Of a stretch of 64,000 nt of DNA, positions 165-23,722 are shown piece after piece (the stretch's first letter is position 1; each line of letters begins with the position of its first letter). The notes under the pieces are model-generated. The model was not told where the DNA came from. It saw only the letters and a list, made by a program, of their open reading frames with translations, and did no database searches. The translations under genes were made by a program, and so were the position numbers. The stretch is from Branchiostoma floridae (taxonomy: Eukaryota > Chordata > Leptocardii > Amphioxiformes > Branchiostomatidae): positions 12,717,876-12,781,875 of the forward strand of contig NC_049986.1 of NCBI RefSeq assembly GCF_000003815.2, read 5' to 3'.

Positions 165-1482
165 CTTGTGGTATCCCTCCTCTGGAAGATCAATTGTCAC
201 AGCACGCCAGGAATTTACGTCTTCGCCAGAAGCCGTCCAGGCAAGCTCGCTGGTAATGTGGTACGTCCTACATGTATATCACATAATGTTAAAACAATAT
301 GAATCAGAAATATCCCAATGATGAAGCTGAAAATCTATGTATTTTTCATCAAAGTGAAACCGTGTCCTATAAAGAACAGTTGATTTCTTTATTCTGAAGG
401 GTATTGTGATTACAACTGCCCCAATGGACTGAAATATAGGCAAACCCTGGTCAAGTTAAGACATTGTCTACAGTATTGTCAATCGACATGAACAAGTCAC
501 AACGTCACGGTGTCATCCTCCTACGGCCCAAGTTATGACTGAAGTCAATGCGTGACGTACATGTACATAAGATCCCTGTCACACATTCAGGACCTTCCCG
601 AAACTTTCCACTTCCCAACCAAGGTCGGCTTTGGGTTGGTAGTACCCTCGGACCGCATCTAAGCAGAATATGACTTTGATTTTCAAAAGTTATATATGGT
701 AGGCTGGCGCAGAACGACGACCAGTTGACAACCTCGTCGACCAAATCCCAACCACAAAAGACCTTGCGCAAGACTGACTTTCAACTAACTTGGTATACAG
801 CCGTATTATAGCCGCCGAGTCTCTTCTGTCCTCTCCGTATTTGTGGAGAGGACAGAAGAGACTCGGGAGCTATAATACGACTGGATACCAGGCTAACTTT
901 CAACCATGGTGTGGAGATAGTCGGGAAGCCATGGTCGGCAGTATGTGACAGGGGCTTAAGAAGGATACTACAGGGCACCAAAGGCGATGTCGTTTGACGT
1001 ACCGTGTCGCCAAGTAGACGTTAAGAGTGCCCATCTCGCTCCCGTACATGTGATAGTAGAACTGCAGCTGTTGACATCCCTCGGTTTGGAACTCTGCACT
1101 GGAGATCCGAGCCACCTCCCCCTGAACACGCGGGCTGGACGCCTCAGTATACAAGTACCAGTCTGCGGAAACAAATCCGTGATCACGTGTTAGGTGATGA
1201 ATATACGGGTTATAATTATGTTACAACTAAAGTCATAACTACCACCAAGATTATAGTGGTGTTCAACATACTGGTTCAAGCCTTAATGGTGACTTCCAAA
1301 TGGCATTGGAAGATAATCAGCAGTGGTAGACAATATCAGTTGAAAGAGATGCTAACTTCATCCGCATCGTCACACAAACACGCGCCCAAACTCCGGCTCG
1401 AGGGTCTGGCAGGGATCATAAAAGGTTTACCTCCTGATTGGGGACGCTAGCTTAAATCTTTTACAAAATAGACTGTGTAACT

Positions 1483-1534
<52 letters not shown>

Positions 1535-4500
1535 CCCTTAGTAAAAGATACCTAAAGTAGGCTGTTATAACTGTAGAAACGTAAATTCCTATCTCATTGA
1601 CATACTGGAATTGTATCCTGAGCTCGGCCCTGTGTCAGAGGACGCAGTTACTCCACTGTTCCTGGTCCAATCAAAGTCGTCGGTTTGGCGATCTTGTTGG
1701 TAGCCACAGATGCTCGCCTCAAAGTTACACTGGACTGGGTCTGGAAACAACAAGGTTGAACTATTAGATTAGTCATGGACATACGATGTTGTGTTAGCTA
1801 TAGACGCACAAGGGGAGTGGGAGGGAGGGAGACAGAGAGATACAAGAAAGATAGAAAGTGTGAAATACGACGTCAGTCATATGTATATATGTATATCGGG
1901 CACATCTACGGACATGTTTGGTCATCGACACTTTAGTGTAAGTTGCCTTTTTTGTTCTACAGAATTATTAACAGATTATGTAAGGTCCTGTTCAAATTCA
2001 GACAGACTACACTGGCTATTATAGGGCTAGGGAGAAGAATTTGCCTGAGAAGTTTTGCTACCAGAGGAGTTGGTCGGCCGTGCAGGAACCTAAGCGTGGA
2101 CTGACTCCCCTGGCCAATTTCCCGATTTTTTTCTCCAAATTCTACGATTCCCGCACGCCCGTAGGAAGGCCTAGTGGAGGCTTACCGTAACAGATGACGT
2201 CCTGTCCCGACCACGTGCCGTCCGCCTGGCAGGTCCTGGAGGACGAGCCCTGGTGGAAGCCGTGCAGGCAGGTGAACTGGATCACCGTGCCGTACATCGT
2301 GCCGCTCCCGATGATTTTCCCAAACGCTGGCCGCGACAACTCAGGACAGTGCACAACTATTCAGACAAAACGTAGTGAGAAATGATGCGGTAAGCATAGT
2401 CTTATACATAAAACCACTTTGCAGCAAAGTGTTTTTTATCGATAGAGAAAGATCCCGCCAAACTATCTGGTTTAACAGTTGTTAGATACGGTATCCTAAT
2501 GTTCCGTTACAAAGTCGTGAAATAAACCGATACACACTGCGCCATACCCCCCCCCCCCAACACACACAGACATACTAAGTACCCATCCATGCACATTAGT
2601 ATGTCAGAAACTGTAAAGCTGTCGGCCTCAAAAGAAACATGGGCCCATAAAATAGACGAAGTTGGCACGTGAAGTAGATTAAGTGAACGTATACATCATG
2701 GCACATGTCATATCATAAGTATATAGAAATAAGTATTGTACTTTCAGATTTCATCTACAGACACAGAGGAAAATGAAACTTGAGATGCAATTTCTTTCTC
2801 TAAATACCTTCACACGTGGTATCGTTTCCACTCCAGATCCCATCTTTGGTGCACGTCCTCTGACTGGACCCGGTCAGCTCGTACCCGACGTCACACGAGA
2901 AGCTGTAGGTACAGCCGTACGTGGTGCATGTGGAACTGGCGGTGCCGTGGTCAGGCGTGGGGAGGGGCAGACAGTCTTTGACTGGATGGATGAGAGAACA
3001 TAGATGGAGGGCGATACTTCTGTAGACGTTAATTCTCCTAAACATCGTTTTGCTAATTTTTGGTCACATAGATAAGACACTTAATAAAAATATTACCAGG
3101 ACAAGATCCATGAAGATGGCTGTTGTAACAAAATCATACAAGATGAACATTATAAAACAAATAATGATAATAATGCCCAGAACAATAATCATAGATAGTA
3201 ATATTCTAGTTATTTCCAGTACGTCGTCTTTATGAGTTCACACCAACTTTTACATGTATCAAACAGATATGGATGTACAGGTCTTTCCAGAAGGTCCCTT
3301 ACTCTGACAGGTAGGTTCTGCAGAAGACCAGCCGCTCGCCGTGCAGGTGGCGCTGTCCTGTCCGATCAGGTCGTACCCTTGGTCACAGTTGTAGAACACG
3401 GTGGCACCGGTCAAAGTGCTCGAGAACGTGTTGCCCCCGTGAAAGGATAGTGCGGGGGTCGCGCAGTCTGCAGCTGTGTGGTATTAAAGAACGGAAAGTA
3501 TATGTTTAAAAATCTATCGGCTATTGATTATGGCATAGGTCCCAATTAGAAAAAGCGGCCCTGCCAGGCATTTCACGGGCTGTTCTTTTGGCATTTTCAG
3601 GCCCCATGTGACACTTTGCGGATCCCGGGATATTTTGGGGCCCGGCCGGGAACAGGGTTGAATTTAAGTCAGACTTACGATGCGCCTGGGACCCGGTAAC
3701 AAATGGTCCCTGACTTACCCGTGGGGAACACCCCTCCGGTATCCACCGGGACAAATTCGTTTGTGGTTACGGAGCCCGGCCGGGGCTACATCTCTGACGG
3801 GCACCGGTGCAATTGGGACCTAAGCCTAACAGGTGCCGCGCGGTAGACATTGTGATCGATACAGAATTGCGCCCTTCAGGCGGGATCATCAGGAGCACCA
3901 CCATGGTCAGAAAGAAAGGTCAATCACCAGGCCCCAAAATACCTTGTACCAGTAAGACCGTATAGGTCTGGTCACCGAGATTGTAGTGGTGGGGATTTTT
4001 ACCGGCTAGCTAGTGAGGGGATCCAACCTCTGCTTGGAGAATAGTAAGACCGTACATTTGGCAGAGATAAACGTCATGTATGAAGCAAGAATTTTTTTGT
4101 TGATTTGTAACAACGCCTACTGTCTCATCAGTCATTGGGTACTACTGCATACTGTCCTTTTTGTGTAATGATTCTTGATATTGTTTAATTTTCAGAAATA
4201 TAGTTGATATTACGTCTTCCCAAAGCCCCACAAATCTAACCTAGGTGTCATGGCCTATTCTAGCAGGGAACTTGGCAGGAAAACGATGGACCGGGGTAAG
4301 AATAGTATGGACAGACTACGCAATCCTAGCATGGTTAATTCTGATGATAAAGTTCTGTGTCCCTTCTCGACGTGATGCGTTTCTTACCCCAGTACGACAT
4401 GTTGAATCCGCCCATCGAGAAGGACGCGTCCGACTGGAAGCGTACGAAGATCTCGTCCGCAGCCTCTGTCTTGAACACGTCTACAGGCATGTACTGTCCG

Positions 4501-7500
4501 GATAAGGTGAGCATCAACTTCCCTGATTCTGAGGACCCCTGCGAATGGATGAATAGAGTAATGATGAGCTTTGGAAGGCGGAAGAAGGAAGGAAGGGTTG
4601 TATTTTCATGACCTGTAAAGCTGAATATGAACGTGACCAAACATCCCACCTGAAAAATGTCGAGACCAATCTAATGTGCTTTACGTGTATATGTCAATTT
4701 TAAGTTCCTATGCGTTTCAAAGGCCAATACGCACATACACATAAACTTGTTGAAACAAGACCGAAAGCTCTGTTGTAATACCGCAGAAATCTACCAGGGT
4801 GCCCATATTCAAACTTGACCTTTATTTTGACAACATCTATATGATTTTGACATCATAAATTTAGATATCCTTAAACAGCATCTTGTGATGTGCTGCCTAC
4901 AAAAACAAGTTCACTGACAAACATACCCACAAATGGCACCGAAAATAAATCTCAGCCAAGGTAGAAAGAAGATCTGCATAGTTATACGTGCCTCATACAC
5001 AGTGAGGATGTCATAATTGTGTTCGGTATTGAAGACGTTGAACTTGAAGAGCACGATGTGGTTATCCCTCGGCTTGATGTGCCAGGTGCAGGTTTGGGAG
5101 TTCTCGTAGTTCCCGGGGAAGTTCGGGCTCAGCAGGACGCCTCTGTCGTGCGTCAGGAGCTGGTTATTACCGCAGATAACTGGTGAAAAATGCATTAATA
5201 GATAAGGAAAGTTTATGACTGTAGCGCTGCCGTTCACGACGAGTTCTTCCTTTCCTTCCAATTTTACACTCTGGTGATTGGTGAGTCTCTGTTTTCTTGA
5301 AAAAGACCAATAAAGTTAGTCCAAACCAGTGAATATCGGAGTCTCAGTCGCCATCATTCTCATGTCCTTAGGTCAACTTAAAGTACATGGTAGAGACATA
5401 GGGGGCTCACACGTGACAATGGACAAAGATAGACATTACTGTAAAAGAGAACACTCAAATACTAGTGTTGGTTACATGTATACAGACAGGTTGAGTATGC
5501 CTTCTTTGCTGGAAGTAGAGAAAGACAAAGAGCCCAACGTTTTCTACAATCTGCGACTTCTGTGATTTAAGAGAAAAGTGAGCTTCTGTTCGTCCGTGAA
5601 TATGAGAGAGTTGGGGAAGAACGTCATTGTGACTTCTTTAAACAATGTGGTTCTTTCGGTGTGGTCAAACGAGTAATTGGAAACATAATGCATTTCGTTT
5701 TCGACTGATTTAGATGTACAGTATCTAACTAGAGTTCGGGGACCTCATACCTCCATGAAATATTCATTGCTTTTTGTGGATGTTATGTATGTTGATGGTC
5801 GGTTGTATTTAAGAGTAATGGATATTACTGTTATGGGTATCTGCTTGGAGCAAAGCCCCATTAACAAACACTTAAAGCACGATGCCTGTTCCAATATATC
5901 GCAGATATAGGGGTGATTTTTGATATTATTACATCGATTATAACGACAGATACGGCGCCCAAAATCTCATCGATTCGAGCTTTCATTACACCTCACCAAC
6001 ACAACAAGTATGAAACCAACCCATCCAGCCATTCTTGAGTAATCTTGTATACAGACAGAGACACCCCCAAACAGCTGTCACCATCTGCTTGGAGCTAAGC
6101 CCATTAACAAACACATACAGCACGATGCCTGTACCAATATATCTCACATATAGGGGTGATTTCTGATATTATTACATCGATTATAACGACAGATACGGCG
6201 CCCCAAATCTCATCGATTCGAGCTTTCATCACACCCCACCAACACAACAAGTATGAAACCAATCCATCCAGCCGTTCTTGAGTAATCATCTACACAGACA
6301 GAGACACATAACAGAAAATATAACCTCCATTTCATGACATTTCATGGAGGTAATAAATGACATTCGTTTTACCCAATATTCCGGTTGAACAGTATAAAGT
6401 TGGCCCCTTACGTAGAGGTTAAAGAAACATGGACTGACTTTCACATGCCGGAGGTGTGATGAAGTCCCAGTGCCCCTGGGACTCGCAGGTGACCGTTTCG
6501 GACGGGTTGTTGAAGGTGTAACCGGGTTCGCAGGTGTACGTGGCGACTTCGGCATACGTCAGTCCCGTGTACGTCATCTCTCCGTGAGTCACAGGGGGCG
6601 GGACTTGGCACACAGTGGCTGCCAAATAAGGGCAATAGATGAGCTTTGGGGTTTATGAAAAAAATACAATCCTCCAACCAACATAGAAATTTTCGTCCTG
6701 GTCTTATTTAGGACCATATGGCCTTCCAGACGTTTGAGATAAGCCACGGCTAAAAGGTGGCTGGTAGTCGGTAGCAGCCCCCGTCCCAGTTCAATGATAC
6801 TTGAGCTTTATCTATGTGTCGTTTCCATGGGTCAAGAGGTATCATTTTAATTGTTTTTCTTTATATATCCTTTTTTCAATACTATATCTGAAAGTTACTG
6901 GAACATCCCCCCCTCAAATATGATTTCTATATTACTTCACAGTTCCTTCAAGAATGCATGCATTTACGCTATACATATGAACCTTCAAGAAACTTACTTA
7001 TGAGAAATGTGAATATTCTCTTATATCTGCATACTCTCATACCTCAGACTCTCATGCCCTATACTCTTATACTTCATACTTCTTATACTCTAATAACTTA
7101 TGATTAGAGTCCCATACCCTATACTCTTATACCTTATACTACTATGCCTTTTACCCTTATACGACGAAAGATCTCATACGTTGGCACGTGACGTTGCCTG
7201 CCTCCCAGGTTCCGTCTGCTGTGCAGTTCTTGGCGGGGGTTCCCACCAGCATGTAGCCGGCGTCACAGCTGAAGTACGCGGTGTCCATCGAGTACGTGAC
7301 GGTACCGTTTGTCAACACTAAGTCCGCACACTGGCGATCTGCATGTTTGAGAGCAAACGGATGAATGGATGAATGAATGAAGGAAGGAACGAATGTCTCG
7401 CCAAGGTAAGAGTAAAATCGGACCTGATGACCACTACTCCTACCAGGTAAGGCTAACATCGCATTTCCAAACCGGGGCCCGGCCGGGCAGTTTGTGGAAA

Positions 7501-10500
7501 CGAAAAATAGAACTGTATACGTAAAAATGTGCACAAATAATGCCCACGACAATTCTCTTTACGCTTTGTGTAGTTTGGTGTCTTTTATATCATACTTAAC
7601 GTTCCCTAAAGCTGCCCGGTCGGGCCCCGGTTTGGAAATGTGACGTTGGTCTAAGCCGCATTCAAATCCATCCTACAATTACTAGTCATATGTTATCACA
7701 GAACCGATCATGGATCACCAGACAGCGACATTTTGTACGACACACTCTCGACTGCATTAATATAAGGACGTCCCCAACTTGATATCATAAAAGCTGTCGT
7801 GTGACGTAAGTGACAAGGGTTCACAGCAAAAGGAGACTTACTGTATTCTTCACACACCACGCCTGCATCCTCGCTGTGGCCACAGTTATGACTTCCCCAT
7901 CCATTGCTGGAACAGTCAAAGATGCTGTCCTCGTTTCCCCCGCAGGCAAGATCGTCCAGGTAGATATTACCACTTCCTGAAACATACCAAAGATACCTTA
8001 AACGTTACCTACAATTTGATGGTGTCTAATGATATCAAAGCTACTATGAGGGCTTTAACATACAGGGTCAAATTGTATTTTGTATTCTACTTGACCCCAT
8101 CGACATCACTTGTATTGTAAGGTATTGACTTGTTAAGGCCCATCTTAGAATCTGAACTTTTGTCGATGAGATGTGATCTCCAACCAGTCAAGCTCACTTC
8201 TCATGTAGAGCTATTCTTCCACTGGTCGTGGCAGAAAAGACATACTATGTAAAGTATTCACAGGTCTATCGACAAGCACAATGAACAGTGGACGACGGCT
8301 TAACGTCAATTGTTTCCGGTAGCGAGCGACACAGCCAGGATTCAAACTCACGTCTTCTTGGTCCAGAGGCATGGTAGCTAGCCACTGGACTACTCACGCT
8401 ACTAAACGATGGTATCAATCAAACATTATTCACCTTGTCCATAGAAAGCAGACGATTTAGCCTCCAGTGCCCGTGGGTAGCGCAGCATGCGGCAGATGAC
8501 GTGAGCTTCGGGCATCCCAAATGAGTCATCACAGATCGTCCCCCAGCTCTCCGACTCACTCCGGCGGATCTCTACTCGTCCTTCCCGCGCGGTGGGTCCG
8601 TTCCTCAGCCTCACCAAATGGCTGTACTGAGATACCGGAGGTGCTGTACAAACAGAGGAACATTTATTTGAAATATGTACAATAATCACTATCATTGTAT
8701 CATCTTGTATAAGTGGCGGCGCTAAAATAAGTTGAATGTGACTTTGAGTCCGCCGTCACTTTGTCCTCGTCCGTTTATTTGTATTTTTACATGTATCTTT
8801 CAATAAGAAAAAATAAAAGAATTACTATCATTACAAATTTCATGATTGGCACTATCGTCTGAATGTTTATTTCATTTCTTAAAATCATTTTCATAGTCTG
8901 GAATAGAATGGAGACATTACCAATGAATTCACTTCACCGTAAAATATTACGTTTTTTATTAAAAAAAAACGTTTCTACATCACTAATCCAGCAAATTCAA
9001 TGTTTTTGTGAAGAGTCTCGTTTTGAACTGAGAAACAGTGAAATAAGACACCATCTCCTTGGAAACATACAATAAAAGCGATAGAAAAGAACGAAAACAA
9101 GCATTCGCATGAAGGACGGACGCACCGACGTTTTGTCCCTCCAGTCGTTCGTAGTATTCGTAGTTACTGGAAGTGCCCATTTCGACGGACGTGGTTAACC
9201 TGTTGTTTTCACTGGTGTAACATTTGGAAGTGGCCGTATTCACTTCGAACGACCGGCAGTAGTACGAGGTGGCTTCAATGCACCTAGGAGTCGGACGACC
9301 AAAATATATGTAAAAATCGCAAAGTCTTTAAGTGTATCAGTATTTCACATTCGCGTTACTGCCCTGTCATTATTCAAAGCTGATAGGGTGTTTGCGGTCA
9401 CATAATATGACGTAATTTAGTGTCCGCCATTTTGCTGAGTTTAACATACGCGCGAACCCAATATGTACATGTATTATAGAGAATTGCTAAACTTTCTTTC
9501 AAACACTAAGATAATGTAGGGGCTTACCCCTAAATTTTCGGTCGATCTCCGTCGACCTTGTTCACAGAATGACCCTTTCTCTCTCCAGCAGTGACGTCGG
9601 GAAGACACCACTTTTGCAGGAGGGGGTCATAAATATCAGAAAGTCTATGTCGCCCCCTGTCCCCGAAAATTTAGTGGTAAGTCCCTACATTATCTTAGTG
9701 TTGGAAAGAAAGTTTAGCAATTCTCTATAATATATTCTACCAACACATGAACTTTCATGATATGTACATGTATGTCAGAAATAAATGGTTCCCTCTACTT
9801 CAGCACCAAACTGTACATGCAGTATTTCTTTAACTCCGAGAATCATTGTCTGTATCTTCCGAATAACTGGTCCAACATGGCGACGGTGGTGGCCATTTTA
9901 TCAGATGTCAAAAAGAGAAATTTTCATTGGACACAATGGCACTCATAAGCTGATGGAGTGAAGTTTGGAACACTGCGGCACAAAATCATCGGCCCCAAAT
10001 ATGCTAGCCTCTACCAGGCTACGAATATGCTATTAGTATTACGAGTACCTTTAAGAATGGGGAGTCAAGATGCTGGATCTAATAGGAATGAGAAATCGTT
10101 AATATGAAGGTTGAAAAGTGGGGGACTTATGTTACAGCCTTGTCTCACCCCGCAGAATGACTAGAGTACGATGACAGACCATGTGGGGTTTGAACATAGA
10201 ATTCTATGATGTGATACATTGATTTTACTAGTCTAAAGAAGTTACCTCCTATAAAAAGATAGAATTTTATAGAATACTCCGTTTTGCCATACCGAATCGA
10301 AAGCTTTTCATAAGTCTACGAAGCATGCATATAGCTTGCCTCCAGGTTTGGATGTCTGTTGGTCAATAAACGTTTTTATACCCCCACACATTAGGCGCGA
10401 TTCGATCGGACGACGAGTCTGCGAGCTCTAATTTACGAGGAGGCATGACCCTGACGGGAAGGGGGAACTCTGCCATTTCTTCGTATTAGGACGAAGAGAA

Positions 10501-11141: not shown

Positions 11142-11213
11142 CTTGGTTCGAGGAGTACGCTATCACAAGCTGTACTTGTGCAACACTGTTACCCCTCTGC
11201 TGAAGGACGCCTG

Positions 11214-11220
11214 TATTTAT
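11214..11220 (-). promoter_or_regulatory. TATA-like box of left mosaic gene
   Basis: On the minus strand GATAAATA lies about 73 nt upstream of the ATG at 11141, in a GC-rich stretch. Initiation about 30 nt downstream would give a leader of roughly 45 nt. Confidence 0.5.
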
Positions 11221-12382
11221 CTGCGGGGAGGCCGTGGGACGTCAGCACGGGGGCGGGACCATGCGGTGGGACGGGTGAGAACAGTACAGGTGGCGAACGG
11301 TCAACGTACGCGCGGGGTTCGCCCGCAGGATAGAGGCTACTCATGGGGTTTACTCAATGCTACTTTATTTTTCAAAACTAGGGCTTACATGGACTATTTT
11401 GATCGTATTCACACACATATGCTGTCAGAATGATGGACTAAGAAGAAGAAGACAGAGCAACAATTCTGAAAATCTCTTTTCATCCCGAATATTGTTATCT
11501 CGGAAACGCCTTACGAGCCACTGCTCTGACTAGACTATGAAAAAGTGTAAAAATACAAACAAAAATGTACAAGTCATGACATGCACACCATGGGGCCATG
11601 TATGTAGGTGTTGCAGCTTTCATGTCGCCGCCCAGGACAGATGGGAGGGCAGGGGAAACGGTAGCGTGGGGGCGGGCTTTGTCTTGCCGCTCGGCAGGTG
11701 AACAAGAGTTCAACTTCAGACCAGTAAAAGTCCTTCATTTCTTCTGTCGTGACATGATACACATGGAATAATGTAAACTGCTTCTGCAAAAGTTCAACAA
11801 ATTATGTTAAAGTCAATGTATAGGTAAGTTTTTTTGTCATGTATGTATGTACGAGTATGGATGAACGAATACGGGATTGAGTGCATGCATAGCGTATGAA
11901 TGAATGAATGAGTACAGGGTATTGCCCTGCCATCACGAGACAGAAACCTGACGCACGTCAGACGTTTGCGCCAGGAAAGGCCACCTGATAACGGTTCTAG
12001 CCAATATGTTTAACGTTTTCTACACTGGCAAATAAAACCCTTCCTGTTTTTGACGTGACCATTTGAAGATTCCGGATATTGGCTTGGCCAGTCACATGAG
12101 CTGGTATATTAAATCCATATGAGATTCGTAACAAATTATGTTAATACGTAGCCGTACGCGTATGAATAGCGCATCCATTGCGCATGAGGGGTGTATGCTG
12201 TACGCAAACCTATTTTTCACTGCGAATAGGTGCGTATGTATGGCGCGTTCCGTGCGTATTCCGGACTTATGGTGATCGCTAGGCTAGGATCCAAATACTC
12301 AGAGATAAACTGTTATATCTAGTCACATCCGAATGTCTGTGTATGGGGTCAGTTGCGCACAAGCTTAAGGATAGTTACATGA

Positions 12383-12571
12383 TTACATACCGGCTCGTTG
12401 AAACAGATACAGATCTCCGGATGTTGTATTGCGTCCACGTGGTTTAGAACAAGTAGGTTTAGAGCACCCACCACACAGCGGCACACAGGTGTCCGCCCCC
12501 AAACCACTCTCACACAGTCTTAGTTTAGAGCAGTCCACCGTGGTAAATAGGTAGGTTTGATGTTGCTCCAT
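12383..12571 (-). other. Unassigned Cys-rich open frame between the divergent genes
   Basis: On the minus strand it reads VDCSKLRLC, ADTCVPLCGGCSKPTC, with six closely spaced Cys. A good donor GTATGTAATC follows GAGCCG near its left end, so it could be an exon, but I find no convincing acceptor, signal peptide or partner exon. It may be chance. Confidence 0.25.
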
Positions 12572-12765
12572 TCACTTTGTCTTGCAGCCTAATGACAGCA
12601 TTATCTGACAGTTTTAAATACCATCCAGACATTCATTTTATCTTGTCTTATTTTCAGCGTGTGCAAGTTGTAATTTCCATCGCCAAACTTCGCCTTTGGT
12701 ATCTGTGGAGCCGTGCGCTAAAGGGACAGAGAGAGGCCAGCCAGCGTCGCCATTTGTGGTCAAAC

Positions 12766-15700
12766 ATGGAGACATTTCAAGTCTGTCTTGCCCTTCTGTG
12801 TCTGGGCGTCTTGACAGGTAAGATTGCTTTATTTGTACTTTGCGTTCGTTGTGGTCGCAAAGATAAAGCATATTTGTAAAAATAGACTGTTAAGAAAGGG
12901 TAAAATGTATAAATTTGCAATCTCTCTTCTACAACGTAAAAAGTATGAAGAAACTGCAATGCTGTAGGGTCAACGGGTCGATCCTGAGAGGTCTCAGTAG
13001 GATGCAAAGTTAATGGATATGATGTTCATGTATATTGTACATGTACGTACGCGCGCACACACACACACACGCACACACACAAACACACACACACACACAC
13101 ACACGCACACGCGAATTCACTTGGCTCCACTATCACATCTGACACCCAACTTTTTAACTTGAAACTGTTAAAAGATGAATGAATGTGGCATAGATATATC
13201 TGTATCATTGTACATGTGCACTTTCAGCTTCGTACGGAGCCTATGTGAAATGTTGATTGAAAAGCCCCTGACCGGTACGTGCATATTGATATTACTAGAA
13301 TAAATAAGTAGATGACATATGGATATCAGTATATATGATACCCATATAGCATATGGACAGTTACTAGCAGTACGATATGTATCATACGGACAAGCTAGCC
13401 ATCAAGTAAGCAAGGGTGATAAAATCTTGGATCCTATTTCACCATAGAAGTAGCAGAATCATGTGGTGGCAATCTGGTAGCCACGGAGACGACACAGTTT
13501 CTAACGTCCCCGAACTATCCCAACAACTACGTGGACAACCTGAACTGTCACTGGACTATCCAGGCTCCGTCTGACCACACCATCATCGCAGAGGTCACCG
13601 ACATGGACATCGAGCAGGACAGTGGCTGTCCATACGACTCTCTCTGGTTCTACGAAAATGTAAGTTTGTCATGCTACGGTAGAGTGCGAGCAGGGAATTT
13701 GAGCAGAGTAAAATACGTTCTTCTCCAAGGAAAAATGTATAAATGTACCAGGGGAAATAAAATCCCGACAAACGCTATTTAACAGGAATTGCATGTGACA
13801 TGTAATCCATTTTGTGAGACCATCAACCGATGATGCTGTTAAAAAAAAATAAAGTTTTAGGAGATGACAAAAGTTTGATCTTACTACATTGAAGGAACAG
13901 TTTATATTTTTTAGCCCACAAGGGTCTCTTTGCAATTGTTGTCTTTATTTCGGAATTGCTGTCAAACATTGCTTGCTGGCTTAACGCTTACAAACTGTTG
14001 TCTTTGATTAACGAACACACGACCAGCACGTGTAGTGTTTGCGTGTAGATCTAGCTTACTGATTTGTAAATGCCAATGCAATGCTTTCTCACAGGGTATC
14101 ACCAGTAACAAGTACTGTGGGGCCGGTAGCGTTCCAGCCTTCGACACTACGACCTCTCGTCTGGATGTTTACTTCGTCACCGATACTTCCATTCAAGCAA
14201 GGGGCTTCCAACTCAGCTACAGGGCAGTCTGTGAGTGGACAATCAAAAATTTTGTTTTGAAAGAGAATGTTATTATCATCAATGTGATAATAACATTATT
14301 TTATAACATTATATGCACAGTTTTGTGGTATTTGCTGAAAGAAGTGCTATGAGAGATGACAGCTGATTAACGTGTGTATCTGCACATGTGCCATGGTATC
14401 AAACGACACCACGGCACATATGGCTACATGTATGTGCTCATGCCATGTTGATACACATACGGGCTACGTGCACATGCCATGTTGATATACGTTTCATCAT
14501 CACTGTGATTTTGCCAGTCTATATCAGGAAACAGCAGTTTGGATAAAACCCATGTCAAAAATCATCATTTATGATCACATGCCACCATATCAATGTAATG
14601 ATTACGTATTAATTTGGGATCTTTCGTGTTCCACTGCCTCAGGAAAAGAAGTCGAACTCAACAAGTTACAGTTTAGAGTTAGCTTTTAGACAAGAGTAGA
14701 CATATTCTATACTGTTCTACAATTTTGTTTGTTTGTCTCCTTTTATGGGGCCTCGTGCAAATAGTCGCAATGAACTATTATCATTTTAAAGAAATGTCAT
14801 TAGGTAACTTTATCTATATCCGTTGTGTCTTAGCCGCAGGAGGAAGGATACGGCTTGCAGGAGGGTCCACCCCGAACAAGGGCCGTGTGGAGCTCCTGTC
14901 CGGCGGGTACTGGGGGACCATCTGTGACGACCTGTGGGACATCAATGACGCACACGTCGTCTGTAGGATGCTGGGATACCACAGGGCATTGTCCTCCCAT
15001 GGCTCGGCCTTCTTTGGTCCAGGTGAGCATCCATGAACACTTGCGCTATTACTCTGTGACGGAGGGTAACCTCAGTCGCATTTCGCATTGTCGCATTCGC
15101 ATGTAGTTTGGAATGTCGTCGGTAGCTGTTTGTATAATCGATGTAATAATTTCAGAATTCACCCCTATATACCTGGCATTGTGGTTTGGGGGTTTGGTAA
15201 TTAGTCCAAGCAGATATGGGGTTACCGGTTTGTGGTGTCTAATGTACACAACAGCCGTTGCGGCAGATGAATACCTAAACAGACTCTGGCTTTCTAGGAC
15301 ATTGCATTGGTTAATGCCAGCCTGGTGTTATAATGCTTTGGCCTCTTTTACATACAGGATTTTCTTAGAGGTTAGTGGGACGAAGTTTTAGGACGTTTTC
15401 ATGACACAATTCAATCCCAACCAAACCAAGTCCAAACAAATACCATCCGTAACTCCGCCTCCGGCTTCCCTCTGCAGGTTCGGGAGACATTGTTCTAGAC
15501 GATGTGCAGTGCAGCGGGACCGAGGAGACGATATTCCAGTGTCCTGCCGTTACTAACTCGGACTGTACCCACTCAGAAGACGCAGGAGTCATTTGCGACC
15601 CTTATAGTAAGCCCTTATTATGGTCTCATATATTTAGCCGGCAACTGGCCGAGATATAAGTATACATTCGTAAATCAGGTTATGATAGGCAAGGGATAGA

Positions 15701-18700
15701 CAGCCGGGAAACCAACCTAGACTAAATTTCATACATTGGTCAATCCTTTTATGGCGATCAAATTACTTATGTTTCTGTCTTAAATTTTGCAACTATAAAC
15801 TATTGATATTACCAGTGTCGGAAAATTAAAAACACTTTCAATGTTAAGCTAGCGACCGTTGCGCATTGCATGGTTTTGACTGTCTTAGGCTAACGTCACA
15901 TTTCCAAACCGGGTCCCGGCCGGGCTGTTGGTGGCAACGAAAAATAGACACAAATAATGCTCTTCACGTCTTGTGTAGTTTGACGTCTTTTATATCATTC
16001 TTTTCGTTCCTGAAAGCTACCCGGCCGGACCCCGGTTTGGAAATGTGACGTAGGCCTTAAGCGTTGCATAGAATGTTGTTCCTAATTCCTGTTGACCCTG
16101 ACCCCTACCAGTCCGCCCGTGCGCTGACCTGCCGGACCCAGCGAACGGTTACGTGACGTACGACCAGGCCTACGCGCTGTACCACTGCGATCGTGGATAC
16201 GAGATCTCCGGGACGCCGAATCGGACCTGCGCGGAGAACGGAGCCTGGGTCGGCCCCGAGCCGTCGTGTAAACGTCAGTATATCGTGACTTCTTACGTAT
16301 CACAAAAAGCTCTAGCTCATTCTCTTACCCTGATAGTAGTAGATTGGCTTTTCACTTGAGCAGCAGTTTATTTTAGGTCGCTTGTAGAGACTGCTATAAA
16401 AGGCAAAGTGACTTGAAACCCAAAGTCTTTTTGAGCGGCATTTGATGGTACAAGGCAAAGGCCGTCAACTCGCTATCCGTACGATATTGTACTATGAACT
16501 TTTCCGGTGGTTTTCAATTAAGTCTTTGGAGAGCGATAACAACGACATTTTTTAGGTGAATTGCCCTGTTTTCTACCTGGACGGCATTGGAAGTCTTTTC
16601 TCGGCGGGTCTGAAGTGCTTTCGCACCGCGTGTCTTTATGGGCCACGGTAGGATTTCATTGAGTACAGGTATCTACTCCCCTCAATACATGTCCCATAGG
16701 TGTCAGCTGTCAGTTGCCTGATGACCTGCCGAACGGGTACTACACGTACGTCGGTCTGCAGTACATGGACACCATGACGTACAGCTGCGATCCCGGGTTC
16801 ACGTACGGTCACCCAGACAACAACAAGAACACGTTTGTCTGCGGTCCTGACGGGACGTGGGACTACACGACCCTACCAACCTGCACAGGTGCAATCTTTT
16901 CTGCTGTTATACGACGTAGATTAAAGTCAAAGTTAAATAATCCTCATACCAAATGGTATATAGGGCGGCGCATATCTCCATTTATTTGCCCTTGGGTCAG
17001 ACAGTTTTGCAAGCACTACAGAAGGGCGCCAGTGAAAGCACTATGTGTTCAACTACCACACCCTTTCCCATTAGTGGCTGTTGTAGGTAAAAGCAACCGT
17101 TTACACCCAAAATCTGATGCAGTAGAATTGAGTAGAGCACGAGGAATGACAAGTCTACTAAATACACCCGCGTTAGATCAAGATAGGATTTATTTACCCC
17201 AAACTGTGAGATATTTAAATGCACCCAACTGTTAACAAAAATGTTAATCAATCGCGTGTGACTCCATGTGTACTGTGGAATTTCACGCCTGCATTCTGGT
17301 TCTCCCTGCATACCTGTGTTCAATACCATACAACCATCCATTATACGAGTATGATTACTACAGCAACCTGTGGCAATAACGACCTCCTGACCGACGACAG
17401 CGGAGTGTTGTACAGTCCAGGCTTCCCCGGGAACTACCAGAACCGCCAGCGCTGCACGTGGGTGCTGAGACCCAGGGATAACCACCTCGCGCTCTTCCAG
17501 CTTCACTTCCTACAGACCGAACACTTCTACGACAAACTGACAGTCTATGAGGTGCTTTTTTATTACGAGATAATATCTTTGTTAATGATTAGTCAAGATA
17601 ACAGTTCAACAACCAAAATCGGAGGTGATGTGGACATTAGTAGGCATCTGACATTAAGAAATTGTATTTAAAGGATGTGCCAGAATAAAAATCAATACTT
17701 TAACTTTCTCATCAACGAAGCAATAGCTTTTGACTGACAAGTTTGTTCTTTGAACGTAAGGGTTCCAGTGAAAGCGGCGACGTCATCGTTTCGTTGTCAG
17801 GGAGGTATCCACCAGATGACGTGTTCTCGTCCAAGACCACAGACGACATTTACGTTGTGTTGGAAACCGATGCCACGAACACCGACCGGGGCTTCAACCT
17901 CACATACTGGGGTGAGATACTTTTCACTTGGCGATTGAAAATGAAGCGTAAAGAGACCATAAGAATGGCTGCAGAATATCTCCAATCACGTAACCAGTGT
18001 TCCTGGCTAATCTAATGTAACCATACAAGTCCCCGTCATTCCGGAACGGATTTCATGACTTCATTGCAATTGTCCTTAGTTGTCTATGTAATAATTATGA
18101 TTGTAAAACTGCCACTATATTAGTACTATGACCAACATCAACAGCTATACCGTATTCTATGCGAGACGAACATTTTGCACTGCTTGTTCTTGCCAGTTGG
18201 AAATACAACTTTACCTGACCATATCAAAACGCCGATGGTGCTCACTAGTGAGCAATGAAACAACAACTCACCATTTCTGGGTTATCTTCTTTCTCTGCAG
18301 CTTCCGACTGCCCCTTCCCTCCCTCCATCTCTAACGGAGTCAGCAGCTTCTCTGGACAGCTGGCAGGTGCGACGCTGCAGTACAGCTGTGACCCTGGCCA
18401 CGTGCTGATAGGTGCTCCCAACACCACCTGTGTGGAAGGTGTCGGGTGGTCTGCGCCGGAACCCACCTGTCAAAGTACGACACTTGCTTTTCAACGTAGC
18501 CTTAACACACTTGTGGCTGCTTTTACGCAAGAACAGTATCATCATATACGCTCAGCAACGTATAAAAAAGTATTTCACAGGAAAGTACTTACGGAATTTG
18601 GTAGGTGAGTATTGGCGAAATAAAGAAACTTTTAGGTTTGTGGCTTCTTTATAAACAGAACAACATTCTCTTTACGATTCTTGCCTACACAGTTGTCACC

Positions 18701-21700
18701 TGCCCCGCCCTGCCATCTCCAAGCCAATTGGTCGTCTCGAATCACGTGTGTATGACGTACGGCTGTTCGGCCTCGTTCTCGTGCTCCACCGGGTTCGAGC
18801 TGACCCCTGACAGCCCCGGCCAGACGGTGTGCCAAGCAGATGGGACGTGGAGTGGACAGGAGCCTGCTTGTCAGGGTAAGCTGGGGTCAAGTCAGACTGA
18901 TTCTATCGATGGCATCCTCGGAAGAAATCCAATCTGCTGGGAGAGGGTAAATAGAAAATGACAATCAATCGTAACAAAACCTGACCGTGGGCTGATAGAT
19001 TTCTTAGGGTATAATCAGCATCTCAACGGACGACTTTTTAGATTTTATCTTATACTATACTATAACAAACATAGTCATGAACAAAATCTGTGACTTCGTG
19101 GAGGGAAGTGTCTTTCATTGGCTCCAAATCTTGACTTTCCAGTACCTTGCATTTTCTCTTTTGCAGAATCTGGTAGGTAGAGAAGCTCTAAATCTTTGCT
19201 CGTAAAAATCCAATGTTTCGTATAATCGCTACAGTGATCCATTGCCCAGCCCTGCAGCGGCCAGAGTACGGGAAGATCCTCGGCAACGAAACCGCCTGGG
19301 GTTCCGTCATCGAGTTCGAGTGCAAGTACGGGTTTAGTCAGGGCAGTACCTTCCGGACCTGCCAGGGGGCGGGCACATGGTCCGGAAATGACGTCATCTG
19401 TAAGGGTAAGTCACAAGCAAATGGTATTGTCTCAATGTTTCACCATCATTTTCTGTCCTATCTCATTACATTTCAGGAATGTTTGCATCTCAAAATTACA
19501 TTATAACTTGTATTCAAAGCATGTCAAAACGTCGTTAATGACTCTATATTTCATTATGTTAATGTGCCTCTCCAGCTCCAATACAGTGCGAGTTTGAAGC
19601 CGACTTCTGCAGCTACGAGCAGGGCAGATCTGACGACTTCGACTGGACAAGAACCAACAGAGAGACTACCTCACCAGGCACAGGCCCCAGTAGTGGGTAT
19701 GGGGGCCTAGGTGAGACGTTCATTAATGTATCAATAATGATATTAAACTAACATTGCAACACCTTAAATATTTCAATCCTATCCTGTGATCGAATACGGA
19801 CATAAAAGCTATATCTTTCCCTTCCGCCATGGCATACGTGGAGTACATATAACTAAGTAGTTTATACCAATACGCATCGTTCAGTGGATTTCGCTAACGC
19901 CGTAGATAGATTGGACCTTCAACTAGTTAAATTGTATCCTGCTGTTTTTTCATATGTTTGTTATTCTGTTATCAGTCATGTCTGTTATCAGCACCCTCAC
20001 ACTCAGGGTTGACAATCACGGCAAAGCCTATGATATCACCCCTGACAAATCAGCCACAGTATTCGGTTATTAGGGGTGCCTTGCTTATGAATATTAATGA
20101 GCTTGCCCTTATATGGGCAGTCAGCCGTTGGGGATCGGGCGTTGGCATGGTGAGCAAACAAAGTCATGGTAATACGTAACATGATTGGCTGATAGCTTCC
20201 CAGCGGCCTTTGCGAGACAGCTTGCGACAACAACAAGCCCAAGAAAGGCCTATTCTCTGATTGGTCGACAGCTTGTTTGTGGCGACAATCATAATAGCCA
20301 CTAATAGGGCATGGGATAGCAGGGCCCCATAAGGTAGTGCCGTTGGGGACCGGGCGTTAGGAGGATGGTTATCAGTGACCTGTACCTAGCCCGTCGAGGC
20401 ATGAATGTACAATAAAGGTCTTTCATTCATTCATTGACAATTAGCCTACTCTCCAATATGGTAGCTGTTTGGCACCTAATTTCTAGGTTACGGGCTTAGG
20501 CTTCCTTCACTAATACTCCGTGAATAGTTTCGTCAGGTTGGTACATTCTAAATACTTTACGTTGTGACAGCATCTGAACTGTGAGCAGCGACACCTGTCC
20601 TGCAGTGCAATTTCAACCAGTCAGAATTATCCTGAAGAAGGTGACAGGCGATCACCGAAACGTTGGTTGTGAATAAAACAATGGTTGTGTAAAATGAGTC
20701 TCTTTATTTTCTAGCTAATATTGTTTTCTTCTCCAGGCTACTACGCGTATATCGAGTCCTCGCCCCCGCATAGAGCGGGTGACGTCGCCCGACTCATCAG
20801 CCAGGAGTTCGAACCGGAGGGCTGTGCGCAGCTGCAGTTCCACTATCACATGTTAGGGGACGCCATCGATACCCTCAATGTGTACATAGAGACAAGGTAA
20901 TTATGGCAACGGAATCGGGGATCCGGGAAGTAAGATAGTCAAGACTGCCCAAGAAGACCACTGAGAAGTGTGAACAGGTGGTCACTACAGACAGGTCCCT
21001 TTATACTTGTGTCAGTATGGTAACTGGCCAAAAAGTGGTCCCATTGGCCTGGTGGTGCTTTTGTAGAGATGGTCACATGTACAGGTATGACTCTACTGGA
21101 CTTGACGAACCATGGATGCTTCAAAATCGATATACCTAAACCTTTTTTTCCTATCAACTATTGACATCTAATATATTTCATGTTGAATATGTGTCGACTG
21201 TCTAGTTCTATGTAAATTTACCGAACCTCACACCTCACATCACCAGTCCTTTGATATTGAGTAGTAAAGGAAGCCAGGTATCTTTAAAACCTCTCTCTCA
21301 TTGAAGGACCAACAAGCTGGTAAGGGAGCTCGTGTGGTTCAGAAAGGGGGACCAGGGGTCGGCCTGGCAAGAGGCACGGGTCTCCTTCCCACCAGAGGGA
21401 TATCATAAGGTAAGTCTCTGTTTACACGGAATCCTCTTGAGTTTTTTTGTGGCAACCAAAATGTTTCCCTCAGTACACAGAGCATAACATAATACACAGT
21501 ATTGTGCATATGGAGATTCCAAAGACATTTGTCAGCATCCTTTGAAATCTAAACAGAGTGGAAATCTTGACTGAGGATCAAGGAAGACATCTTAAGTAGT
21601 ATATAATGTTTTTTCTTCCCCTCTCCTTTCAGGTGATCTTCGAGGCGTTTGTTGGAAGCTCACACACGAGCGACATTGCCATAGACGCCGTGCGGCTGAT

Positions 21701-23722
21701 ACAGCAGCCATGTGCAGGTAGGAACACACAGTTACAGAGGATTTCGACAGCATGGGCTACTAATGCAAAGAAAAGTAAAGAAAATATTGAGTTTCTGTGC
21801 TAGAAGAAAATAGAAATAGTGGGAGACAATTTTATTGTCCCTATAAGCTCTTTCGCAAATTCGACTACGCATGCACGGGAGACGGGAATTCTGGGTAATA
21901 TGTGAAAGGTGAAGGCCCCTGAGTCCCTGACTATAAACATTCCGCCAGTTGACCATCTCAACATTGTTACGCAAATCGAAACAATGGTCGAGACCAGTTG
22001 ATTATGTCTTAGAGGCCTTAATCTTTGACATTACCCATAGATCCTGTTGCCCGCGCATTCGCAATTGAGTCTGCGAACGAGATTAGTGTCCAATTGTTAC
22101 TGTCCTCAAGACTCTATGATGAAGAAAATCATCATCATAATTTGAGATGACAATTAGGTAACTATCACGGTACACTATCTGTACTATAAAAGAAGAGGTA
22201 ATATGACTATATTATTGGCAGATCCCACAACAGAGCAACCGACGACAGCAGAGCCAACCCCCACCATACCTCCGACTGAAGAGATCACCACTTTGCCGTA
22301 CACACCTAGCGTCACGGTACAAACTGATGCAGGGATAACCAACGTAACAACCACCGCACCAGCCACTGTTAACGTAGAGCCGAGCACAACTCCGGTGACA
22401 ATGGTTGATTCTACAATGGTCACTACTGGCCAACCAAGCGCATCGACATCTATCCAAGAGATCACCTCTGTGCCACCAACGACACTAGCGGCCACTCTGG
22501 TTCCCGTAACAGGTTGTTACAACTTTAATTTGGCCGTCCCGCCCTCCTTCCTTCCTTCCTTCCCTCCTTCCCTCCCTCCCTCCCCACACACACCAAAAAA
22601 GAAACGAAGCTGTCATATCGACAATGCAGACACACATATTACTTAGGGCAGAGGTACTGTCAAAATTTGAAGTGTAATGTTACGCCGATAAAAGTATGAA
22701 TAATACTAACAAAAGCTGTTCCCTTTTAAGACCTACGTCACATATCCTAGACGGGGCCCGGTCGGGCTGTTTGCGGAAACGAAATATTAAAGTTTATGCC
22801 AAAAAATATGCACAAGACATGCCGTTGCATCATTGTGGGTTGGTTTCATGTTTTTGTTGTCTTTTAAATCGTATCTTTCGTTCCCCAAAACTGGCCAACC
22901 AGGCCCCTTTGTGGAAATGTGACGTTTATAGCCTATATATGGTGGTGTTCACCTACTTTCTCTTGCTCCTGCAGACTGCAGGATAGACCAGCACATCCCT
23001 GGGGATGGCATAGACATCATCAGCTCCCCGAACTACCCCGAGCAGTACCCTCCCAACCTGGACTGCTGGTACGTCATCACCACAGACCCGGGCTACTCAC
23101 TGCAAGTCAACATTTTGAATTTTGACCTGCCTGGCAGCCCTACGGACAATAACGTCACATCCGGCGGATGCACGGATGATTATTTGGAAGTCCATGCGTG
23201 AGTCAAGAAATTATTCAATAGCTATTATAGCAATTTCTACTTTTAAACTCTTGTCGATTGTCCTTTGAAGATATTTCCATGGCAGTAGTGGTCAGTAGTT
23301 TGGTGCTTGTTGAAATTACAGTTTCCTGGCAATCTAATGTTAAATTTCTGTTAAGGTTTCTTCCCTGGCTAAATTGGTATTTTAGGCTTCTTTTATTTTC
23401 TCAGTAATAAATTAGAGAAGAATGAATGGAGTTATAATGAATATTGATAGCTTGGCACAAAAGAATTCTAGATATGATTTTTTTTAATCTATGGATGGCG
23501 TCATAGAGTTTCATTCCCCCTATGAAAACCAAGAAGTCTTTTGTCCGACATTTCAGACCGCTAGGAGGTCCGCCCTCCCAGCGGTACTGTGGACAGGCGT
23601 TATCCCCGGGAACAACATTCTCGTCCAACGCGACGTTTGCCCTGCACTTCGTGACGGACGGAGTCAACGCCTCAGGAGGGTTCAGCGCTATCATCCGCAG
23701 TGTTCCTTCGTCATTGGCTTGA
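12766..23722 (+). CDS. Secreted CUB-SRCR-sushi-CUB-sushi-MAM-CUB mosaic protein
   Basis: Nineteen exons: 12766-12817, 13448-13659, 14095-14230, 14834-15022, 15478-15606, 16112-16273, 16700-16888, 17364-17551, 17761-17911, 18301-18474, 18693-18875, 19235-19405, 19576-19710, 20737-20896, 21307-21409, 21633-21717, 22222-22512, 22975-23197, 23557-23722. They sum to 3,099 nt, i.e. 1,032 aa plus TGA. Domains by residue: signal peptide [21 protein letters not shown] 18-133 (four Cys, TSPNYPNNY), SRCR 134-239 (six Cys, [11 protein letters not shown]), sushi 240-293 and 294-356, CUB 357-469 (only two Cys, SPGFPGNY), sushi 470-527, 528-588 and 589-645, MAM 646-806 ([15 protein letters not shown]), Thr/Ser/Pro linker 807-903, CUB 904-1032 (four Cys, SSPNYPEQY). 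There is no membrane segment, so the product should be secreted. Acceptor-like TTATTTTCAG ending at 12658 allows an upstream untranslated exon. Domain order resembles DMBT1-like mucosal scavenger proteins in style, but this exact order is not one I recognise. Confidence 0.93.
13051..13112. repeat. (CA)n microsatellite
   Basis: Slightly interrupted CA repeats in the first intron of the right mosaic gene. Confidence 0.95.
15112..15165. repeat. Fragment related to the 5839-6307 repeat, inverted
   Basis: ATCGATGTAATAATTTCAGA and TTCACCCCTATAT match the reverse complement of the segment around 5915-5935 and 6155-6175. Located between the SRCR exons of the right mosaic gene. Confidence 0.6.
15888..16056. 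mobile_element. MITE, GGGCCCGG family
   Basis: Inverted ends GGCTAACGTCACATTTCCAA and GGAAATGTGACGTAGGCC surround GGTCCCGGCCGGGC and CCCGGCCGGACCC. It lies in the SRCR-to-sushi intron of the right mosaic gene, the same intron as the copy in the left gene. Confidence 0.8.
20371..20437 (+). mobile_element. 3' tail of a retroposon with (TTCA)n end
   Basis: GACCTGTACCTAGCCC, then AATGTACAATAAAGGTC, then TTCATTCATTCATT. This is the form of a SINE or CR1/L2-type 3' end with a short tandem tail. The upstream part (20000-20370) may belong to it but has no motif I recognise. Located in the first MAM intron of the right mosaic gene. Confidence 0.6.
20628..20715 (+). mobile_element. Penelope-like 3' remnant with hammerhead-like core
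   Basis: CCTGAAGAAGGTGACAGGCG continues to ATCACCGAAACGTTGG. The arms GGTGA and TCACC can pair between CTGAAGA and GAAAC, which resembles the hammerhead core CUGANGA-stem II-GAAA common in Penelope-like elements. A matching stem I/III pair was not verified. Confidence 0.45.
22541..22590. repeat. Pyrimidine-rich (CCTT/CCCT)n tract
   Basis: Runs of CCTT and CCCT just after the donor of the Thr-rich linker exon of the right mosaic gene. Confidence 0.9.
22729..22934. mobile_element. MITE, GGGCCCGG family, diverged copy
   Basis: Starts AGACCTACGTCACAT with ACGGGGCCCGGTCGGGC and ends CCAGGCCCC, GTGGAAATGTGACGT. The interior has GGAAACGAAATATTAAAG and TTGTCTTTTAAATCGTA as in its relatives. It lies in the intron before the last CUB of the right mosaic gene. 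Confidence 0.7.

Follow-up and report, generated by a model that had tools for sequence, protein, structure and literature searches.

Head-to-head mosaic genes of Branchiostoma floridae differ in one N-terminal module, a PAN cassette probably shared with a gene on another chromosome

The domain types discussed in this work occur in CD163 (M130), DMBT1, enteropeptidase, the neuropilins, C1r/C1s, and the complement receptors, all of which belong to secreted or cell-surface recognition and to complement. The layouts of these proteins differ from those of the two genes described here in domain order and in the N-terminal module. HGF carries kringles and a protease-like domain, and its N-terminal (PAN) domain is the nearest solved relative, by sequence, of one of the two heads described below (E 3e-4). 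Group A SRCR domains are defined by two exons and six cysteines. With respect to mechanism, excerpts of two papers (PMC8001218, PMC2926785) describe the movement of phase-1-1 modules as genomic DNA, with their introns and with the reading frame kept, as exon shuffling by intronic recombination; in the excerpt of the second, <10% of high-confidence domain gains are ascribed to exon insertion into introns through intronic recombination (PMC2926785). A high, genome-wide rate of exon shuffling has been put forward for lancelets, with 1-1 phased domain exons said to be favored (excerpt of PMC4284660), and this rate has been disputed as gene-prediction error (excerpt of PMC4967905).

The window (the whole stretch of 64,000 nucleotides analyzed, from Branchiostoma floridae NC_049986.1, here C8) contains two head-to-head genes, LEFT on the minus strand and RIGHT on the plus strand, both at the places given by a first-pass annotation. 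In gene models built by hand from the genomic DNA of this one species, each gene encodes a signal peptide, an N-terminal module, an SRCR domain, two sushi (CCP) modules, a CUB domain, three further sushi modules, a MAM domain, a Thr-rich exon, and a final CUB domain followed by a stop. The chains of ten protein modules match between the genes, and the first modules differ (PAN in LEFT, CUB in RIGHT). The first-pass annotation had listed the modules from SRCR to MAM correctly and had omitted the Thr-rich exon and the last CUB, which are present in both genes. It had also ended LEFT at position 165, in error, as the gene continues outside the window. The features are as follows.

From 11141 to a point 2.6 kb before position 1, minus strand: LEFT, 19-exon model
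11081..11141, minus: LEFT exon 1 with the signal peptide, phase 1 at its end (ATG and GT donor both identified)
8842..10702, minus: LEFT PAN cassette, comprising both PAN exons plus intron DNA on their flanks and collinear with C3:2250493-2252163
10511..10607, minus: LEFT exon 2, PAN part 1, 97 nt, phase 1-2
9126..9283, minus: LEFT exon 3, PAN part 2, 158 nt, phase 2-1
7842..8643, minus: LEFT SRCR, two exons (8643-8434, 7976-7842)
7180..7338, minus: LEFT sushi 1
6439..6618, minus: LEFT sushi 2
4388..5179, minus: LEFT middle CUB, exons 5179-4992 (188 nt, GC donor) and 4538-4388 (151 nt)
3303..3473, minus: LEFT sushi 3
2808..2981, minus: LEFT sushi 4
2186..2356, minus: LEFT sushi 5, 171 nt
165..1740, minus: LEFT MAM exons 1-3 (1740-1606, 1162-1003, 267-165)
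C8:12717348 down to 12715273, minus: LEFT past the window, with the final MAM exon, the Thr-rich exon, and the CUB of the C terminus
11142..12765 (1.6 kb), no strand: intergenic stretch between the two start codons, candidate shared promoter
12766-23722, plus: RIGHT, 19-exon model
12766..12817, plus: RIGHT exon 1 with the signal peptide, phase 1 at its end
13448..14230, plus: RIGHT N-terminal CUB, exons 13448-13659 and 14095-14230
14834..15606, plus: RIGHT SRCR, two exons (14834-15022, 15478-15606)
16112..16273, plus: RIGHT sushi 1
16700..16888, plus: RIGHT sushi 2
17364..17911, plus: RIGHT middle CUB, exons 17364-17551 (188 nt) and 17761-17911 (151 nt)
18301..18474, plus: RIGHT sushi 3
18693..18875, plus: RIGHT sushi 4, 83% identity to a third gene
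19235..19405, plus: RIGHT sushi 5, 171 nt, 89% identity to the third gene
19576..21717, plus: RIGHT MAM, exons 19576-19710, 20737-20896, 21307-21409, 21633-21717
22222..22512, plus: RIGHT Thr-rich linker exon, of which the third gene has three copies
22975..23722, plus: RIGHT C-terminal CUB, exons 22975-23197 and 23557-23722, then stop

GT-AG boundaries were found at 35 of the 36 introns of the two genes, the lone exception being a GC donor in LEFT (4991-4990) that the 188-nt CUB exon requires. The exon sizes previously given for both genes (188/151 nt in the CUB, 171 nt in the fifth sushi, and 135/160 nt in the first MAM exons) are correct, and the third MAM exon is likewise 103 nt in each. 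Both heads were also assigned correctly, as Pfam detects PAN_1 in LEFT (4e-9; 29.6 bits in the whole protein and 36.6 alone, at a curated cutoff of 21.4) and CUB in RIGHT (1e-25), and phase-1 introns are present on both sides of each N-terminal module. The intergenic 1.6 kb that separates the two genes may act as a shared promoter.

The remainder of the two genes pairs in order, with shared modules 40 to 60% identical. Intron phase agrees at 17 of 18 introns (the sole mismatch lies inside the N-terminal module), and exon length is identical for 6 of 19 exons. Compared with shuffles, module alignments gave z scores of 13.4 to 33.9 in 9 of 11 cases, with 2.6 for the Thr-rich linker and 0.7 for the N-terminal modules, which are unrelated. 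The synonymous divergence (dS) between LEFT and RIGHT is 1.61 (1.30-2.17), which is near saturation. The one-to-one pairing claimed in the first pass holds for all five LEFT sushi modules, both shared CUBs, and MAM, and only moderately for SRCR (tree support 87/57), the sample for that tree being biased toward single-exon SRCRs, which are what full-length tblastn matches retrieve, such that split SRCRs elsewhere are missed. The sushi margin can be narrow: the first sushi of RIGHT scores 110 against the first of LEFT and 107 against the fourth. It is extremely improbable that LEFT and RIGHT are epaktologs, which gathered the same promiscuous domains independently and never arose from a single-gene duplication. 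The domains are indeed mobile types, and in local alignments many single-exon SRCRs elsewhere reach 64% to LEFT and 59% to RIGHT, at least as alike as the LEFT-RIGHT pair (50%); however, the agreement in phases and exon lengths and the five sushi modules in order argue otherwise, as do the middle and last CUBs, which pair at 58% and 48%, the latter matching nothing outside the gene family at >29.4 bits (57 of 57 candidates scored).

Outside the exons, the comparison of LEFT and RIGHT introns gave a few matches, of 33 to 59 nt each. Two of these, in the SRCR-sushi 1 intron of both genes (RIGHT 15870-16059, LEFT 7671-7448), were considered as common ancestry and rejected. They belong to a foldback element of ∼220 nt; because further copies lie in the window and in loci L009-L011, and because the longest match of the element between these two introns is in opposite orientation, we read it as a dispersed repeat. 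At the DNA level, a larger inverted segment was sought by blastn between the 40 kb that lie to the right of RIGHT and the 27 kb past the end of LEFT, with no match at E 1e-6.

The head of LEFT has a close relative on another chromosome. A 1.9-kb cassette (8842-10702) matches a PAN-EGF gene at C3:2250493-2252163 across exons and flanking introns, and its edges are sharp and lie inside both bounding phase-1 introns (z scores of 13.5 and 26 inside, and of −0.6 and 1.0 just outside). With exons masked, the LEFT introns gave four collinear matches to C3, at 59, 50, 45.5, and 43.7 bits; the best scores were 32.8 bits for the 46 control loci and 27.4 bits for the 50 shuffles. When window positions 10498-11081 were used in a DNA search of the whole genome (513 Mb), one other place was retrieved, C3:2250508-2250700; the 3′ intron piece of the cassette gave no close copy in a DNA search that was too coarse to detect the known C3 match. 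We rejected dispersed repeats as the source of these matches: the PAN intron does contain two repeats, at 10024-10376 and 9459-9770, which are outside the matching pieces. The search for PAN-intron repeats scored the best 40 of 2009 candidates, and its listed matches did not include C3:2250493-2252163. In a tree of 19 PAN rows, LEFT pairs with C3 (support 98/91). The C3 locus has the same two-exon PAN with an identical split and a signal-like exon upstream, which, together with the window's lone N run (43467-43566), makes a gene-model or assembly artefact, with wrong first exons or unrelated sequence joined, highly improbable. Lancelet domain combinations have been ascribed to gene-prediction error (excerpt of PMC4967905), and our models rest on genomic DNA; in both genes, however, signal exon, phases, and splice sites fit.

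For PAN, dS between LEFT and C3 is 0.36 (0.18-0.63), estimated from 79 codons. Since this value is lower than the LEFT-RIGHT dS and the two intervals do not overlap, the sequences indicate that the cassette was shared between LEFT and the C3 gene later than the inverted duplication. The dN/dS ratio of PAN since this sharing is 0.87 (0.44-1.88), and that of the stalk is 0.27 (0.20-0.35). Signal-peptide comparisons (LEFT-RIGHT, P = 0.01; LEFT-C3, P = 0.014) leave the two origins of the first LEFT exon undistinguished.

We therefore favor, at a probability of about 0.75, an inverted duplication within a secreted-protein family followed by sharing of the PAN cassette with the C3 gene, with LEFT as the likely recipient. 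One mosaic gene would have been duplicated in inversion to give LEFT and RIGHT, as we infer from collinear modules, phases, and arrangement; a genomic stretch, 1.9 kb long in LEFT, holding exactly the two PAN exons and intron DNA would then have been shared through recombination inside phase-1 introns. A head exchange leaves the frame intact, since each bounding intron is in phase 1. LEFT was most likely the recipient, with PAN replacing the CUB still kept by RIGHT, although LEFT may instead have been the donor. The first-pass proposal of an inverted duplication and a subsequent change of the first module fits the in-order pairing, the common phases, the missing relics (see below), the C3 relative with its intronic edges, and the lower dS.

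The reverse direction, in which PAN was the old first module of LEFT (perhaps of the ancestor), C3 copied it later, and the head of RIGHT changed to CUB, appears unlikely. Both dS and intron homology read the same from LEFT to C3 as from C3 to LEFT, and we found no recent CUB donor for RIGHT, though a diverged donor would escape the search, in which the best 150 of 433 candidates were scored. The nearest relative of the first CUB exon of RIGHT among those scored, at C16:7885063 (55% over 65 amino acids and 80% at the DNA level over 69 nt), has a dS of 1.37 (0.78 to saturated), and the 1.4 kb retrieved there gave no intron match. A recent donor among the candidates scored was rejected, and the values fit an old CUB in RIGHT. 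The surroundings of other PAN modules would speak against LEFT as donor: PAN beside EGF looks native, as in C3. Of 17 other PAN loci retrieved, 7 have an EGF-like pattern (five separate places, as L057 is low complexity and L058 and L060 overlap), and none shows an SRCR pattern. Differential loss from an ancestor with tandem PAN and CUB before SRCR, with LEFT losing CUB and RIGHT losing PAN, is very unlikely. Phase-1 introns around both modules would make either loss frame-safe, but when PAN, CUB, and SRCR were searched by tblastn in the 5′ region of each gene, no hidden exon or relic emerged (the best scores were 18.1 bits, for the first CUB in LEFT, and 16.5 bits, for PAN in RIGHT), and PAN diverges far less between LEFT and C3 than LEFT and RIGHT do from each other, such that an extra copy from LEFT to C3 would be needed.

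The preferred history, duplication and then cassette sharing, would extend to a third gene, 6.9 Mb away at C8:5857.5-5867.1 kb, to which the same family appears to have lent the tail of RIGHT behind a C-type lectin/SUEL/WSC-like/CUB front. The model of this gene is provisional at the front-CUB exon junction and the last-exon acceptor. RIGHT and the third gene share the tail (dS 0.42 [0.28-0.60]), including introns S4-S5 (z 11.6) and CUBc1-CUBc2 (z 10.3) and the 3′ UTR (z 5.2); the intron before S4 is not homologous (z 1.1), and three further stretches display no clear homology (z 2.2, 0.3, and 1.6). Parsimony favors the direction from the family to the third gene. Genome searches scored the best candidates only (44 of 2325, 85 of 1908, and 127 of 762), so further family members may have been missed. 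A broader reading, which we offer as a doubtful one, is that the two phase-1 introns that follow the signal peptide form a favored docking site, at which heads are repeatedly replaced while the stalk is conserved, with selection favoring new ligands. It is similarly speculative that these heads would comprise PAN, CUB, and, by whole-front exchange, the C-type lectin/SUEL/WSC-like front. If head replacement is still under way, haplotypes within one population should differ in their heads.

LEFT and RIGHT are probably secreted proteins of a recognition or scavenger type. Their stalk (SRCR, sushi, CUB, MAM, mucin-like linker, and CUB) would be the constant part and would carry a binding head that can be exchanged. 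By simple hydropathy, the N-terminal 19-mers score 1.62 (LEFT) and 1.76 (RIGHT), compared with 1.09 and 0.97 for the best stretches elsewhere. Each SRCR module has the two exons and six cysteines of group A. A comparison with solved structures used RIGHT residues 1-806 as the query, and the best 60 of 145 matches gave CD163, DMBT1, enteropeptidase, the neuropilins, C1r/C1s, and the complement receptors. Unlike this group, the two proteins have no protease, ZP, or coagulation-factor domain in a Pfam scan and no transmembrane-like stretch by simple hydropathy; the same scan detected no kringle or protease-like domain as in HGF. Their domain order is undescribed in the titles and abstract openings of the matches listed in literature searches. 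The pair constitutes a natural experiment, with one stalk and two heads at a single locus, possibly under one promoter.

The exchange of the LEFT head appears to be intronic exon shuffling, a known process caught here with its intron scars. Relative to the cases in the excerpts of PMC8001218 and PMC2926785, the partner, both intronic edges, and the order of events are still readable. As partner, edges, and relative age all come from DNA, the LEFT-C3 exchange is far less dependent on gene prediction, and it can serve as a template for genome-wide counts of such events. Compared with the survey excerpted from PMC4284660, which concerns the same kind of genome and the same process, the present locus provides one resolved event with intron homology.

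LEFT and RIGHT, head-to-head neighbors with the same module chain behind different N-terminal modules, were modeled by reading both strands, adding the DNA to the left of the window, and picking splice sites through frame and phase. The genome searched comprised 513 Mb on 431 contigs. The genes concerned, including a third gene 6.9 Mb away, are as follows (bare coordinates are window positions; the window is C8:12717876-12781875):

11141 to C8:12715273, minus strand: LEFT, 19 exons, 997 aa, 3' end outside the window
12766-23722, plus strand: RIGHT, 19 exons, 1032 aa
C8:5857.5-5867.1 kb, minus strand: third gene, from sequence matches to RIGHT

The first-pass annotation had ended the left gene at 165; the gene is present, but it continues beyond the window. 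As that annotation had proposed, SRCR, sushi (two), CUB, sushi (three), and MAM follow in the same order in both genes. The full chain is signal peptide, N-terminal module (2 exons), SRCR (2 exons), two sushi, CUB (2 exons), three sushi, MAM (4 exons), a Thr-rich exon, CUB (2 exons), and stop. Pfam finds SRCR, Sushi (five stretches each), MAM, and CUB in both proteins, PAN_1 in LEFT alone, and three CUB stretches in RIGHT versus two in LEFT, confirming that LEFT starts with PAN and RIGHT with CUB. Introns are GT-AG in 35 of 36 cases; the exception, a GC donor at 4990-4991 in the middle CUB intron of LEFT, is required for the frame shared with RIGHT. By hydropathy, both proteins have a signal-like N-terminus and neither has a transmembrane-like stretch. 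Both products would be secreted, each combining a stalk of several sushi modules and a mucin-like linker with a different binding head at the N-terminus. The start codons lie head-to-head, 1.6 kb apart, and could share a promoter.

Nine of the 11 aligned modules match between LEFT and RIGHT at 40-60% identity (z of 13.4 to 33.9 over shuffles); the Thr-rich linker gives z of 2.6 and the N-terminal module 0.7. Every LEFT sushi scores best against the RIGHT sushi at the same position; seen from the RIGHT side, the narrowest sushi margin is that of sushi 1 (110 versus 107). Intron phase is equal in 17 of 18 introns and exon length identical in 6 of 19 exons. For the last CUB of LEFT, the only matches above 29.4 bits are in these two genes and the third gene (all 57 candidates scored). 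The SRCRs of LEFT and RIGHT pair, as a per-domain test of paralogy had called for, with moderate support (87/57) in a tree that also includes 29 single-exon SRCRs. Because many of those single-exon SRCRs are closer to each gene in local alignment than LEFT is to RIGHT, SRCR by itself is no proof of the pairing. Passages defining epaktologs describe one case of SRCR arrays pulling unrelated proteins together (PMC3927612). The flanks share no DNA match, and LEFT-RIGHT introns match only in stretches read as dispersed repeats. One such match, between the SRCR-sushi 1 introns, was rejected as shared ancestry, as its copies are oppositely oriented over the longest match. The repeat is an approximately 220-nt foldback with a gggcccggccggg-like end, found in introns of both genes (7448-7671, 15887-16062, and 22727-22926) and in three other loci (L009, L010, and L011).

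Besides itself, the closest genomic relative of the LEFT PAN is a gene on contig C3 (54 bits; next, 44; all 66 candidates scored), in which a signal-like exon precedes a PAN split at the same place and then an EGF domain. DNA matches including introns join LEFT 10702-10498 to C3:2250493-2250700 and LEFT 9376-8842 to C3:2251587-2252163. With exons masked, four intron pieces remain collinear at 59 to 43.7 bits, against maxima of 32.8 over 46 control loci and 27.4 over 50 shuffles. Homology falls from z of 13.5 to -0.6 just outside the 5' edge and from 26 to 1.0 at the 3' edge. Both edges lie inside the phase-1 introns bounding PAN, in line with the idea of a module exchangeable in frame, and the signal exons of both genes fall outside the shared tract. 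Searching the genome with 10498-11081 gave one further place, the C3 match; the 3' intron piece had no close copy in a search too coarse to detect the C3 match itself. The middle of the PAN1-PAN2 intron was left out of the comparison because of a run of N in C3 and dispersed repeats in LEFT (9459-9770 and 10024-10376). Each repeat has at least 10 further genomic places, and the former also matches itself inverted, as a foldback.

Synonymous divergence (dS) is 0.36 (0.18-0.63; 79 codons) for PAN between LEFT and C3, 0.42 (0.28-0.60; 189 codons) between RIGHT and the third gene, and 1.61 (1.30-2.17; 780 codons) between LEFT and RIGHT, which on the 185 codons common with the third gene is 1.02 (0.73-1.52), still higher. 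The lower PAN value, with no LEFT-RIGHT intron match beyond dispersed repeats, places the inverted duplication before the PAN exchange. This order of dS and the sharp-edged intron homology agree with the proposal of inverted duplication followed by exon shuffling of the head. The dN/dS of PAN is 0.87, with an interval (0.44-1.88) that takes in 1 and so does not separate positive selection from relaxed constraint; the shared modules give 0.27 (0.20-0.35). The first CUB of RIGHT has no close relative among the candidates scored, its nearest exon lying at dS of 1.37 (0.78 to saturated) with no intron match. Together with the late PAN, this favors, short of proof, an older CUB head, with LEFT having received PAN; PAN adjoining EGF elsewhere in the genome points the same way, again not as proof.

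The third gene, which we infer to be a single transcribed gene, resembles RIGHT in sushi 4 (83% identity), sushi 5 (89%), the Thr-rich exon (40-56%), and the last CUB (74-77%). Its front comprises a C-type lectin (2e-23), a SUEL lectin (1e-22), and a WSC-like module (1e-4; 23.0 bits, under the Pfam cutoff of 27.8), each one phase 1-1 exon, and then a CUB (6e-27) whose two exons were joined by eye. Homology with RIGHT extends to the intron separating sushi 4 from sushi 5 (z of 11.6), the one that splits the last CUB (10.3), and the 3' UTR (5.2), and not to the intron before sushi 4 (1.1); it is not clear after sushi 5, before Thr, or from Thr to the last CUB (2.2, 0.3, and 1.6). No MAM match was found in the third gene. 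As the long form is present in LEFT as well as RIGHT, the likeliest history is that the third gene was the recipient of the tail and has lost MAM. It carries three tandem Thr-rich exons (C8:5859.5-5860.9 kb) versus one in LEFT and RIGHT; linker length seems to alter through exon duplication. Among 128 listed matches to its WSC-like module (127 of 762 candidates scored), more than 100 are further matches at 50-71% identity, many clustered on contigs C4, C16, and C13.

Other minus-strand features of the window are a CAP (cysteine-rich secretory protein) domain exon at 32135-32488 (Pfam E of 2e-4; 22.6 bits, cutoff 21.1) and, by eye, open frames resembling part of a major-facilitator transporter (36354-37025) and a non-LTR retrotransposon endonuclease and reverse transcriptase (49313-52477; 1055 aa). 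Past the LEFT 3' end, an open frame at C8:12704699-12705124 (in L010) resembles, by eye, a nuclear-receptor ligand-binding domain. At C15:11345265-11352518, a single 2423-aa open frame holds many sushi-like matches, whereas LEFT and RIGHT have one exon per sushi.

Passages of earlier work report that lancelets shuffle exons very rapidly, with a bias toward 1-1 phases (PMC4284660), counter that such differences are gene-prediction errors (PMC4967905), and put intronic insertion at <10% of high-confidence domain gains (PMC2926785). Immune-type domains are described as enriched in lancelet genes present or absent between individuals (PMC12373286). Passages on SRCR expansion in Branchiostoma (PMC10855680) do not name the LEFT/RIGHT architecture, nor, among the matches listed from a collection with few subscription papers, does any title or abstract opening describe the pair. 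In LEFT and RIGHT, exon shuffling that followed a duplication is real and can be read with unusual clarity. The type of process is already known; the worth of the case lies in a readable time order and its bearing on that standing dispute.
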